Source: Bdellovibrio sp. CG22_combo_CG10-13_8_21_14_all_39_27 (lineage in GTDB: Bacteria; Bdellovibrionota; Bacteriovoracia; Bacteriovoracales; Bacteriovoracaceae). From it: a stretch of 62,425 nucleotides of DNA. Where the stretch lies: contig PCTW01000024.1 in the NCBI GenBank assembly GCA_002786715.1, forward strand, positions 1-62,425, written 5' to 3'. A model generated the notes under the pieces. The model was given only the letters and a program-made list of their open reading frames with translations. It searched no databases and was not told where the DNA came from. Shown one piece after another: positions 43,632 to 49,123 of this stretch. How positions within the stretch are numbered: the stretch's first letter is position 1; every line of letters starts with the position of its first letter. The position numbers and the translations under genes are program-made.

Positions 43632-44354
43632 TTAAGCAACACTTTTGATTTCATTTTTAATTAAAGTAAGTGCTTGCTTGTGAATTTGAGATATTCTTGA
43701 CTCACTGAGGTTAAGCTTCGTTGCAATTTCCTTCATGGGTTTATGATCAAAATAGTAAAGCATTAGAACTTTCTTTTGTGATTCTCCTAACTCATCAATT
43801 TGCTCCACGATTTCATCAATTGATTCTTTTTCAATTGCCGAATCCAATTCGTCTTGCTGCTCTGGAAGTCGATTAAAACTTTGATAAATATCATCCTTAT
43901 CAAGACGTCTTAAAAGTTCATAAAACTTAAAATCATCTAAGGCCAGCATCGATTGCATTTTGTCATAGTTCAAGTTTCCTTCTTGAATCATTTTGTTTTT
44001 AATCTTTCGAGCTTTCTTAATTTGATCTCGATAGTATCGCGACGCCCAGTCGAAAGAGCGAATTTCGTCCAACATCGCCCCTCTAATTCGATACTCTGCA
44101 AAAGTTTTAAATAGGATATTTTTTTTGGGGTTAAACTTCTTTCTCGCCTGCAAAAGACCGCAAACCCCACAGGACACTAAATCATCATAATCAAGACTTG
44201 ATGGATAGCGACGCAATACTTGCTTGGCCATAATCTGAATAGAGGGCAAAAATTCATTGACCAGCTTTTCAACCCTTTTCTGATTCATTATGTTTTTAGA
44301 AAATACCTTTGCCGTCACACTCATCTCCCGCCTAGGACAAGTTATTATAACCAA
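43632..44354 (-). CDS. fliA: FliA-type sigma-28 factor
   Basis: A 240-residue group 3 sigma factor. Region 2 (LDYDDLVSCGVCGLLQARKKFNP...FKTFAEYRIRGAMLDEIRSFDW) and region 4 (LSESRISQIHKQALTLIK) match FliA/WhiG. The upstream methionines at residues 11 and 23 are alternative starts; the latter would give ~218 residues. No flagellar, chemotaxis or anti-sigma (FlgM) gene is adjacent, so it may direct motility or a development-specific regulon from a distance. Lies upstream, on the opposite strand, of the receiver-repeat-ankyrin gene. Confidence 0.85.
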   Translation of the reverse strand: MVIITCPRREMSVTAKVFSKNIMNQKRVEKLVNEFLPSIQIMAKQVLRRYPSSLDYDDLVSCGVCGLLQARKKFNPKKNILFKTFAEYRIRGAMLDEIRSFDWASRYYRDQIKKARKIKNKMIQEGNLNYDKMQSMLALDDFKFYELLRRLDKDDIYQSFNRLPEQQDELDSAIEKESIDEIVEQIDELGESQKKVLMLYYFDHKPMKEIATKLNLSESRISQIHKQALTLIKNEIKSVA

Positions 44355-44552
44355 TCAATTGTCTCAGAGACCAAGGAACTTTCGATTGACTGATGGTTAA
44401 CAAATTTTTAACTACTTAGCGAGACTCCCCGGTCAAGAAAATCATACATTTGAATCCACTTATGCCAACAATTCAAGGCATTTGCCCTAACAAAACTTCT
44501 TTAGAAAATTGTTCATTTTTCCGAAAAGCCTAGGAAGGAGATCATCTAACAA

Positions 44553-46457
44553 ATGACTGAATCTCAAACCAAAAGAATTCTCATCGTCGATGATGACATC
44601 GACGTCTTAACTTTCGTTCGAAAAGATCTCGAACGCGAAGGTTATGAAGTCGATACTGCAATTGATATCAATAGTGCGCTTGATCTCCTTGCCAAAAGTA
44701 AATACGACTTGGCCATGCTAGATATTATTTTAGAATCAGATCTCACGAGCGAAAAAATCGTTAATCACATTTACGAAAATGGTCATTTAAATTCACATAT
44801 TCCAATAATCGTCATGAGTGCTCATATCTCAGAAAAATACGAAGCGAAGATTAAGCAAAAATGTCCAGATGTTAAATTTGGTATTAAAAAGCCTATTGCA
44901 AGAGGAACGATTAAAAATTATCTCGCAAATATTCCAGGTTTTGAAGTTATAGAAGAGACAGAGGAAATGGCGTCAAAAAGTGACAAAGTGTTCGATATCA
45001 TCGATTCAATGAGTAGACTTTTCGATGAAGCAGATGAATACGGACAAGTTGATAGCTCAAGTGATGTTTTTAACGACGACAAGCATATCGTCTCCGGTTC
45101 TAGTGCTGAAGAAGATTCGCAAAGAGTGTCTGGCTTTAGTGAACTGGAAGGAGAGGAAATTTTATATCAAGGCAATACTGATCATGTTGGTATTGAAGAT
45201 GGGGAACTAATCAAGGGATCAAGACAAGATCTCGCTGAAGAAGCGATCATGGTCAAAGGATCCAAGCAAGATCTGGCCGAAGAGTCCCAGACCATCAAAG
45301 GTTCTAAGCAAGACCTGGCCGAAGAGTCCCAGACCATCAAAGGTTCTAAGCAAGATCTGGTTGAAGAGTCCCAGACCATCAAAGGTTCTAAGCAAGACCT
45401 GGCCGAAGAGTCCCAGACCATCAAAGGTTCTAAGCAAGATCTGGCCGAAGAGTTATTGCGTATCAATGGTTCACTTGAAGACGAAGAGAGTCTCCTCATT
45501 AAAGGGTCGAAAGATGACCTGTCTGAAGATTCAATGCTGGTAAAAGGCAATCGAGAAGACTTAACCGAAGAAAACACGATGATCAAAGGATCACGAGAAG
45601 AAATCAACGAAGAAAACACGATGATCAAAGGATCACGAGAAGAAATCAATGATGACAATTCGCTGGTTAAAGGCGAAAAAACGGTCATTAAGGATGAGAA
45701 TATTGTTATCAAAGGAGAAAAAGCCGCTCCTCATAAAAATGAAAAAATCACTATCAAAGGTGGCAATGAAAAGATTGAGTCTGGAAATTATCATATTAAA
45801 ACAAATGGCGATAATAAAATTGAACAACATGCTTTAAGTTCTAAAAAATCGCCTTTACAAGAAGCTGTCGAACTTTCTCAACATCAGAATCCTAAACAAA
45901 CGAATGAAGTCATTCCGGAAATGGAGAAGCAAGATGTCTTCGATCCGAATCAAAGAAATGACCAGGGTCAAACACTTGTCATGAGGGCTGCTTCTCAAGG
46001 CGATGAATCGGCCATATTACAACTTCTCGAATCTGGCGCTGATCCTAACCTATTATGTAAAAAAGGAAGAAACTCTTTGCATTATGCTGCCATGTCAGGA
46101 CAACCAGAAGCCATTAATAAGTTAGTCGAAGTTGGAGTGAAGCTTCAGCATAAAGATTCAAAAGGATTTGACCCCATGGCCTTCTCGATCCTCTCTGGCT
46201 CTACAGCTGCTGTACAAGCCTTTATTAAGGCCGGTAGTCGATTAGAATCTAAAATCAATGGTAAAACTTATCTCATGATGGCGGTTGAGAAAAATGACCT
46301 CAACACAGTTAAAGTTCTTCTCGCAGCAGGAGTCAATTTGGATTTAAGAGACCCTAAAGGTCTGACGGCCTCAGACCTCGCAAGAAAACTTAAGTATCTA
46401 AAAATACATCAATTTATTGAAGCCTATAAGCAACTTAAGAAGAAAAAGGCTGCCTAA
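44553..46457 (+). CDS. Receiver domain - 14-residue repeat - ankyrin protein
   Basis: A 634-residue protein with three parts. (1) Receiver domain, 1-~128: acidic D13-D15, phospho-acceptor D57, S89 and K113 all present. (2) An acidic linker, then about thirteen tandem ~14-residue repeats, residues 222-402 (consensus GSKQDLAEESQTIK, degenerating towards the C-terminal side), preceded by more divergent units from about 170. (3) At least three ankyrin repeats, ~470-634 (GQTLVMRAASQGDESAILQL, GRNSLHYAAMSGQPEAINKL, GKTYLMMAVEKNDLNTVKVL). The repeats have regular I/V-x-G turns, compatible with a beta-solenoid, or an extended multivalent scaffold. AAGGAG precedes the ATG. No family with this layout is known to me. 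Confidence 0.85.
   Translation: MTESQTKRILIVDDDIDVLTFVRKDLEREGYEVDTAIDINSALDLLAKSKYDLAMLDIILESDLTSEKIVNHIYENGHLNSHIPIIVMSAHISEKYEAKIKQKCPDVKFGIKKPIARGTIKNYLANIPGFEVIEETEEMASKSDKVFDIIDSMSRLFDEADEYGQVDSSSDVFNDDKHIVSGSSAEEDSQRVSGFSELEGEEILYQGNTDHVGIEDGELIKGSRQDLAEEAIMVKGSKQDLAEESQTIKGSKQDLAEESQTIKGSKQDLVEESQTIKGSKQDLAEESQTIKGSKQDLAEELLRINGSLEDEESLLIKGSKDDLSEDSMLVKGNREDLTEENTMIKGSREEINEENTMIKGSREEINDDNSLVKGEKTVIKDENIVIKGEKAAPHKNEKITIKGGNEKIESGNYHIKTNGDNKIEQHALSSKKSPLQEAVELSQHQNPKQTNEVIPEMEKQDVFDPNQRNDQGQTLVMRAASQGDESAILQLLESGADPNLLCKKGRNSLHYAAMSGQPEAINKLVEVGVKLQHKDSKGFDPMAFSILSGSTAAVQAFIKAGSRLESKINGKTYLMMAVEKNDLNTVKVLLAAGVNLDLRDPKGLTASDLARKLKYLKIHQFIEAYKQLKKKKAA
45216..45758 (+). repeat. In-frame 42-bp tandem repeats, ~13 units
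   Basis: Units of 42 bases (one of 36 and one of 45) encode the 14-residue repeat of the preceding protein. Units at 45258-45299, 45300-45341, 45342-45383, 45384-45425 and 45426-45467 are nearly identical at DNA level. Those before 45258 and after 45467 are diverged in sequence but keep phase. Pattern indicates recent expansion of the central units in an older array. Confidence 0.92.
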
Positions 46458-46528: not shown

Positions 46529-49123
46529 ATGAAAATGAATCGTCTATTAGTATTAATTTTTTCACTGGTTCTAAGTTTACATTTGTATTCTGCGGACTCG
46601 GCAATTGAAGCTCAAGCAGGAGTAGAAGCTCAGCCTTGGGGTGCCGATGCCATGAGTGTTATTTCAAAAGCAAAGGATAAGAGTTTCGATTTCGTTCATG
46701 AACAAGTAGATGATGTTTCAAAACGAATAGGAATGTCGATTTTCGAAGAATTAACTCGTTTTGAACTCTTCAAAGTTGAGAAGAAGCATTTTGCTGGAAG
46801 TATCAACGTTCAAAGACGACTTTTTCCCAATTTTGATATTTTTGATAGTTATACAGTTGTTGATACATTTGAATTACCAAGCACTATCCCACTCCCAGCT
46901 CTTATTGATCCCAAGGAAATCGTCCCAGGAGTCTTAGGAGGGCTTACTTTTGGAGTCTATGGCAACTTAACAATTACAAATATCAGACAAGTAAGCCCTC
47001 TCAAAATGGAAAGGTTATTAACCTGGGCTTCTCTTAAAGATGAACTTACCCATCTCAATCCTAAAATTGCGAACGCCGACGAAGAAGTTAAAGAGTTAAT
47101 GTCTAAATACGATATCTCCAAAAAAGATCTCATAAAGCAAATAAAAGAAGCCAACAAAGAAGACAATGATTATGAATTGGATTCAAAATTAAGTAAGAAT
47201 ATTGTTGCGAATTATCTTGATGATACTGAAACAAAAGCGAGATTTGGAAAGATTGTAAATATATTCGCTTCTCCTCTTCGTCTACCTCTTGGATGGAAAG
47301 GCATGCAAAGGCTAACTCCTGGAGAGATTGTCTCGTATACTGCGAACGGACTTGTTCAATTAGCCGGAAATATTGGCTGGAATTATATGGCCGATGTTCC
47401 CCTTTTGTCTCCTCGTGGACAAGTGAGTCTCGTGACCTACCTCAATGGAACTTATAGAATTTCCATCATGAAAGAAGATGATCGCTTTTCGCAAGTCAAA
47501 CTGACAAGAATTGGAACCATGGGCGAAGGAGCTCATTTCTACCCCCTTCTATTTGGCTACAAACTCTTTGACGGTGTTGCTGTTATGGGTCTCAATGTTT
47601 CGAAAGAAATGTCTATCACTCCATTTCGTTTTAGTTTGAACAAGTCACGATCTGAAACGTTTGACCTTGTTTATCGTTACGACTTGACGACCGAATCTGG
47701 GAGAGATTGCTTTGACAAGGCCATTACCGGATTTTTTGCTTGTTCTGAGAATAATTTAAATAAAACAGTTGATGAAGATGAAGAACCAGGAGTTCAAAAA
47801 ATTGTTAGTTCAGTAACTAATGCAAAAAATTTTTGGAGAGATACACAATTTGAATTGAAATATCTGTTTAAACGTTATGCCAAGAGAGGAAAAACGTTTA
47901 CTCATGCAAAGATCATACTTCCTGATGGACAAGAAGAAGAAGCTCATTTTGTTAAGAATGGTTTTTCTACGAGAGAAAGAAACTGGAGTACTATTTTCGG
48001 AACGAATGAAGCACGTTCTCAAACATTTCAGGTATCACTGGATGAAAGTAAGTATGAAAAGGGCGATCCTGAAGGATTAACTCTTGAGCTCAAGTACTAC
48101 ATTCAAGATGATAGTACAACAGGAAGAGAGTTTAATCGCTACACAAATGAACTCAATGACCTCATTGGTCTAGATGGAATTGAGCATCGTATTTTTGCGA
48201 TCGCACCAACCTCTGTTCCTCTTATTCGTAAAAATCAAGATGGGATAGAAGAAGAGACGACAACGACCGCCCTATATGGAGATAGTCAATTTTATTTTAG
48301 ATTCCAATTCAACACGAATCATTTAAATAAATTCATTTATCAAACGGATAGTGATTTCAAGCGAACGCTTACTCAAGTTTATAAGCTTAAAAAAGAATAT
48401 CAAGTTCTAGAGGATGCTCTCAACAAAGATCAAAGCATTAAGCAATTTCGTTTCTTAAAAGCAAAGAAACTGTTTAAGAAATGGCTTATACTAAGAGATT
48501 CCAAATCCCTTGATGAACTTCATAAAAAAATCATCGACTTTGTTTACGAAGAAAAGGATGCCATCAAAGTTCTTAATATGATTCGCTGGTCTGTTCCAAA
48601 TGAAGAGTTTGCCTTTCATTACAACGCAAACAATAAATCATTTGGTAATAAATCTGATCAAGGTAATATCTTTTTTACCACTGATACTGTCACGGGCAGA
48701 GCATCTCCAAAAATTAACTTCGATACAATTGGTCCTCGTACAAAAGAAAGTGCAGAGGCAAAAGTGGTCAGTCTTGAATCGAAAAGATTAGAATCAGGTC
48801 TCATTGAACTCAACTTTGACTTGAGCATCGATCCATCATTTATTTTTATTGATCTTAAGAGGCATACTCTTCATATTGGCGCAGATGAGAATAGACTCAT
48901 TCTTCCAAACAAAAATCGCTTCGCTAAGGGCAAGAATACCTTGATCCTTGACCCTAAAAGTGAAGAAAAATGGATGAGAGAACTTTGCACTATTTTAAAA
49001 AATTCACATACCTTCAGATTGGGCTTGGCAATTGCTGACCAGGATCAAAAATGGAGCTCAATCAAGTCAACTGACTTCATTGTTCGTCATTTGACTAAGA
49101 ATCCTGATCTTCAAGGACCTTGA
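46529..49123 (+). CDS. Large secreted protein of unknown function (864 residues)
   Basis: Signal peptide (residues ~1-22, LHLYSADS) and a long mature protein rich in Lys/Asp/Glu with many aromatic and beta-strand segments. Cysteines are few. No enzyme motif recognised. It follows the receiver-repeat-ankyrin gene by 71 bases on the same strand and may be transcribed with it. Probably periplasmic or surface; perhaps specific to this lineage. Confidence 0.8.
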   Translation: MKMNRLLVLIFSLVLSLHLYSADSAIEAQAGVEAQPWGADAMSVISKAKDKSFDFVHEQVDDVSKRIGMSIFEELTRFELFKVEKKHFAGSINVQRRLFPNFDIFDSYTVVDTFELPSTIPLPALIDPKEIVPGVLGGLTFGVYGNLTITNIRQVSPLKMERLLTWASLKDELTHLNPKIANADEEVKELMSKYDISKKDLIKQIKEANKEDNDYELDSKLSKNIVANYLDDTETKARFGKIVNIFASPLRLPLGWKGMQRLTPGEIVSYTANGLVQLAGNIGWNYMADVPLLSPRGQVSLVTYLNGTYRISIMKEDDRFSQVKLTRIGTMGEGAHFYPLLFGYKLFDGVAVMGLNVSKEMSITPFRFSLNKSRSETFDLVYRYDLTTESGRDCFDKAITGFFACSENNLNKTVDEDEEPGVQKIVSSVTNAKNFWRDTQFELKYLFKRYAKRGKTFTHAKIILPDGQEEEAHFVKNGFSTRERNWSTIFGTNEARSQTFQVSLDESKYEKGDPEGLTLELKYYIQDDSTTGREFNRYTNELNDLIGLDGIEHRIFAIAPTSVPLIRKNQDGIEEETTTTALYGDSQFYFRFQFNTNHLNKFIYQTDSDFKRTLTQVYKLKKEYQVLEDALNKDQSIKQFRFLKAKKLFKKWLILRDSKSLDELHKKIIDFVYEEKDAIKVLNMIRWSVPNEEFAFHYNANNKSFGNKSDQGNIFFTTDTVTGRASPKINFDTIGPRTKESAEAKVVSLESKRLESGLIELNFDLSIDPSFIFIDLKRHTLHIGADENRLILPNKNRFAKGKNTLILDPKSEEKWMRELCTILKNSHTFRLGLAIADQDQKWSSIKSTDFIVRHLTKNPDLQGP

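Follow-up and report, generated by a model that had tools for sequence, protein, structure and literature searches.

The window, i.e., the whole 62,425-nt stretch of Bdellovibrio sp. DNA that was analysed, carries an open reading frame with an ATG start codon behind a ribosome-binding site rated as good (Table 1). By Pfam and by mapping of repeat anchors, the translated 634 aa sequence displays, in order, a receiver domain, an acidic segment, an array of VxG repeats and a C-terminal ankyrin domain. No DNA-binding or enzymatic domain is found by Pfam in the protein, as the initial annotation had proposed for the part following the receiver. Pfam also shows no C-terminal DNA-binding domain of the OmpR, NarL or NtrC type, which places the protein outside the transcription-factor response regulators; NCBIfam matches to families of these types cover the receiver part only and are far under the cut-offs. 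MzaA, AnkY and other NCBIfam identities were rejected, since the likeness is limited to the ankyrin or the receiver part and is again far under the cut-offs. The safest statement is that the gene encodes a phosphorylatable receiver with a protein-binding, non-transcriptional output.

Table 1. Features of the receiver-array-ankyrin gene in the window, followed by the other protein architectures that carry the array
Feature	Location	Strand	Basis or remark
Whole gene, receiver-array-ankyrin protein, 634 aa	44553..46457	+	ORF call, homologues
Ribosome-binding site AGGAAGGAG, 12 nt upstream of ATG	44532..44540	+	Sequence
Receiver domain, residues 9-121, with D13/D14, D57, S89, K113	44577..44915	+	Pfam, invariant residues
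Two stray VxG anchors (residues 180, 192), acidic segment N-terminal to array	45090..45161	+	Anchor mapping
VxG array, residues 216-415, 14 anchors	45198..45797	+	Anchor mapping, spacing statistics, AF2 pLDDT ~30
42-bp tandem DNA repeat, 4.8 copies, 93% matches	45253..45453	+	TRF
Ankyrin domain, residues 464-634, five repeats, lysine-rich tail	45942..46454	+	Pfam, AF2, Foldseek
N-domain of no assigned family + array + ankyrin	L090, L098, L108, L253, L254		
HD-like + array + ankyrin	L086, L105, L111		HD match weak, under Pfam cut-off
CBS-like + array + ankyrin	L255 (L255:726-1919)		Weak CBS match, 22.6 bits vs 24
Ankyrin + array + ankyrin	L257, L258		
N-domain + array + long coiled coil	A2 family (L075, L038, L039, others)		103 of 129 family genomes

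The repeat also casts a shadow open reading frame on the antisense strand, at 45182-45712. A match to phage CL31 was discarded as chance low complexity, antisense to an annotated gene, and a plasmid search gave no match. The divergent neighbour at 43632-44354 is a sigma factor of the FliA/WhiG family that scores 154 bits vs the NCBIfam cut-off of 190. A signalling link between the two genes had been suggested initially but is unsupported, because relatives of the receiver-ankyrin gene have other neighbours. At 46529-49123 the window encodes an 864 aa protein that has a signal-like N-terminal segment and no match in Pfam or NCBIfam.

The receiver is matched by Response_reg at residues 9-121 with an E of 1.3e-12 (Pfam). 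The residues D57, S89 and K113, listed in the initial annotation as signs of an intact domain, are present together with D13 and D14, and all five are invariant in an alignment of 10 homologues. Thus the acidic pair, the phospho-acceptor Asp and the Ser/Thr and Lys switch residues expected of a phosphorylatable PF00072 domain are intact and conserved, and the receiver is presumably phosphorylated. At the other end of the protein, Ank_2/Ank match residues 463-610 with an E of 6.5e-24 (Pfam). In AF2 models from three sequences this domain has a pLDDT of ~90, and Foldseek shows a DARPin-like fold with a TM-score to the target of ~0.88. The ankyrin module recognised earlier is thus borne out by all three methods, as tandem helix-turn-helix repeats, and may bind a ligand.

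Between the two domains, the VxG anchors of the array are found at residues 220, 234, 248, 262, 276, 290, 304, 316, 330, 344, 358, 372, 386 and 401, i.e., 14 residues apart save for one spacing of 12 and one of 15; the earlier count of about thirteen 14-residue units is correct. The segment was also described as acidic, rightly so, as its net charge is -39 over residues 126-463. The evenly repeated motif is [ST][QT]x[VI]xG. Only one position of the unit is always aliphatic, and at several others of the 14 an acidic residue is found in 65-73% of cases. Units of 14 residues often have L or I seven residues past the anchor, while 13-residue units do not and are acidic there. By eye, a W/Y-x-[VI]-K-x-L segment often closes the arrays of ankyrin and coiled-coil proteins alike. 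At the DNA level, the 42-bp tandem repeat is the most recently amplified stretch of the array.

Important is the conservation of the repeat spacing. A distance of 13 or 14 residues separates 72% of neighbouring VxG anchors in the array proteins, vs 5% in shuffled segments, and where the linkers are less than 20% identical the neighbouring anchors are still 13 or 14 apart in 86% of cases (among spacings of 8-20). Thus the period is constrained and is not merely a result of recent duplication. Between units of the window array pN/pS is 0.39-0.45, and the corresponding values for the homologue L076 are 0.26-0.31, which shows that the amino acids of the units are retained while synonymous sites diverge. 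These figures bear on the possibility that the array merely separates the two domains, as a passive acidic spacer that grows or shrinks by slippage of 42-bp units and has no specific binding role. The tandem repeat in the DNA, the variation from 5 to 21 anchors inside one genus (g3), the existence of array-less receiver-ankyrin proteins and the predicted lack of structure are all in keeping with a spacer of this type. However, the spacing conserved at low identity, the purifying selection on the units and the reuse of the motif in unrelated architectures exceed the needs of a passive linker, and we regard such a role as improbable.

Structure modeling of the array by AF2 was based on shallow alignments, of one or three sequences. 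With a single sequence the array appears as a long helix, in five disagreeing models with mean pLDDT from 67 to 36 and a pTM of 0.25. The helix is considered an artefact, since the models disagree, a Gly occurs every 14 residues and the mixture of 13- and 14-residue units breaks the helical register. With three sequences, AF2 yields the receiver and the ankyrin domain, and residues 132-461 are unstructured, with a pLDDT of ~30 over residues 132-437. By composition, too, the protein is classed as disordered in a Uversky plot. Neither run displayed a beta-roll; the regular beta-solenoid suggested at the outset thus did not emerge from structure prediction. AF2 is prone to predict solenoids for perfect repeats (PMC11795689), and its failure to draw one is therefore a modest count against a solenoid.

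A folded array should also be considered, in the form of a beta-roll or solenoid rod with one coil per 13-14-residue unit, which would provide a rigid spacer or an end-to-end assembly unit. The roll would be left-handed, as in grass antifreeze proteins, and might perhaps form only upon binding of a partner or cation or upon stacking of arrays. Over the window array, the Pfam family LbR_Ice_bind is matched with an E of 2.7e-9 and 37.4 bits, vs a gathering cut-off of 30 bits, but the homologues L075 and L076 have ~20 bits and are under that cut-off. Among remote matches in the PDB, the top one is 3ult, the ice-recrystallisation-inhibition beta-roll of Lolium, with an E of 0.16 only. Coils with variable turns would fit the tolerance of 13 or 14 residues and the tight spacing despite divergence, and the segment that closes many arrays is cap-like. 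However, the single aliphatic position per coil and the prevalence of acidic ones make for a poor solenoid core, and AF2, despite its solenoid bias, produced an unstable helix or no structure. The likeness to beta-rolls is one of sequence period only, and a rod of this type seems unlikely.

Searches of 129 genomes from the family to which the window belongs (relatives of Halobacteriovorax within the Bdellovibrionota) revealed one or more receivers with the same ankyrin domain in a single open reading frame in ~16 genomes of nine genera, most with the array. These members include a Halobacteriovoraceae MAG and the Halobacteriovorax marinus isolate 36_234_T64, which puts the window among the Bdellovibrio-like Bdellovibrionota, and some have two receivers (L042, L043, L248, L251). 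The array ranges from none or nearly none in 345 aa forms to 21 anchors in a 643 aa form. It is absent from the receiver-ankyrin proteins of G023 and G087-G090, and is thus dispensable for the core function there. In G081:C202 and G084:C47 (L084, L256) the gene lies in two frames, possibly from a frameshift or an assembly error. The domain order was initially said to match no described family, and no published description was found in a limited literature search that included few of the subscription papers. The family is apparently undescribed and may be specific to the lineage of Bdellovibrio-like bacteria.

In genera g3, g17 and g21 the receiver-ankyrin gene adjoins further receiver genes. 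One or two extra receiver proteins of 224-235 aa are encoded beside it in Halobacteriovorax (g3), G016 and G020, and these end in a C-terminal domain of ~110 residues that has no Pfam match. Paired receiver proteins are located at L006:434-1800 (G000:C92), L040:4377-5767, L042:5360-6744 and L043:531-1235; their apparent counterparts in the genome of the window are on a different contig.

Searches were made with the array alone and with a profile, A5, built from diverse units. In addition to receiver-array-ankyrin, the array repeat is found in at least five further architectures (Table 1). At an E of 0.01 per genome, the profile matches 88 family genomes, together with 13 from other families of the phylum; a few of these could be chance matches at this threshold. 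The protein with the CBS-like domain is possibly a ligand-sensing version of the same array-ankyrin output, and the A2 coiled-coil protein is possibly a core scaffold of the lineage. An A2-type protein with only a few, degenerate units is present in the genome of the window (L200:2209-4455), and the array carriers read from beyond the family are coiled-coil-like proteins. A2 is so common that its co-occurrence with receiver-ankyrin proteins carries little information. At the loci read, the A2 gene is usually directly 3′ of a gene for a 220-390 aa protein that resembles a degenerate HD-GYP and has no Pfam hit. A receiver ancestry of other N-termini is not claimed, given hhalign probabilities of 15 for the domains of no assigned family, 1 for the HD-like and 4 for the coiled-coil proteins.

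The initial annotation had allowed that the repeat segment could be disordered low-complexity sequence shared by unrelated proteins. In part this holds, as the array is predicted to be unstructured and is found in other proteins; however, the carriers come from one lineage, and many have ankyrin domains related to each other. These relationships and the tight spacing show that the array is a real module and not random low complexity.

The linkage of arrays to ankyrin domains in five architectures raises the question of autoinhibition, whereby the array would be a pseudo-ligand for the ankyrin domain in the same protein, and the ankyrin surface would be freed once the receiver is phosphorylated. 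Ankyrin repeats elsewhere bind autoinhibitory segments, as in AnkB with its segment AI-c (5y4f). However, charge complementarity between array and ankyrin domain is no different in proteins with and without the array (Mann-Whitney p 0.81) and was dropped as proof of binding, and the array is also paired with coiled coils in proteins devoid of an ankyrin domain. Autoinhibition is thus judged quite unlikely.

The scaffold or adaptor function proposed from the first reading of the sequence is supported, and the form of it that we favour, with slightly less than even confidence, is a phosphorylation-switched adaptor with an ankyrin head that binds a partner and an array that serves as a flexible, periodic, multivalent docking tether. 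A histidine kinase would phosphorylate D57, and the phosphorylation state of the receiver would alter, probably by way of dimerisation of this domain, the availability or the grouping of the ankyrin domain, which would bind a partner protein. The acidic array would be an expandable tether showing many evenly spaced motifs, and may form a multivalent docking or assembly strip that the protein has in common with other signalling proteins and with coiled-coil scaffolds in the same cell. In favour of the adaptor, receiver and ankyrin domain are kept together while the array copy number varies, and this array likewise connects different N-domains with related ankyrin domains or with coiled coils. 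The invariant receiver residues, the 13/14 spacing, the pN/pS values, the predicted disorder and the nearby receiver genes count on the same side. Against it, a free docking array does not in itself need the 13/14 spacing, and the array-less members have to be accommodated. A wider proposal, which we hold to be rather doubtful, is that the VxG array is an undescribed signalling-assembly module of the Bdellovibrionota, a partner-induced periodic strip for docking or stacking that would gather receiver, HD-like, CBS-like and ankyrin proteins and large coiled-coil scaffolds into a single phosphorylation-controlled complex.

An array with an ankyrin domain is apparently an uncharacterised response-regulator output, and at least six protein architectures in predatory bacteria and related organisms contain the repeat module, with several of them in some genomes. 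Should the array indeed be a shared docking or assembly strip, this would suggest a common signalling scaffold in these organisms, and one short motif would be a handle for finding its members.

Several known systems resemble parts of the protein. DARPins and canonical ankyrin proteins have a similar five-repeat fold, which in the window protein is fused to the array and to a receiver that can be phosphorylated. LbR_Ice_bind (PF21300) and the grass antifreeze beta-roll share the 14-residue VxG periodicity; in contrast, the window array is highly charged, has a single VxG in each unit where the beta-roll has two, forms no solenoid in AF2 and is probably cytoplasmic. The ankyrin self-protection protein of the related predator Bdellovibrio bacteriovorus is also an ankyrin-based protein binder, but by description it is set apart, being reportedly short, bound to endopeptidases and devoid of a receiver or array. 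The closest working analogue in plan is RomR, the polarity response regulator of Myxococcus xanthus and Bdellovibrio, which is further marked by polar localisation and by interaction with MglA, MglB and RomX. Both proteins have a receiver, a long unstructured linker and a C-terminal protein-binding region, and both lack a DNA-binding domain. In M. xanthus the RomR linker alone is targeted to the pole (PMC3441718). The RomR linker is Pro-rich, whereas that of the window protein is the periodic VxG array, and by description RomR ends in the conserved helical Glu-rich RomR-C instead of an ankyrin domain. Because the C-terminal regions differ, the two do not belong to the same family, and the resemblance is one of plan.
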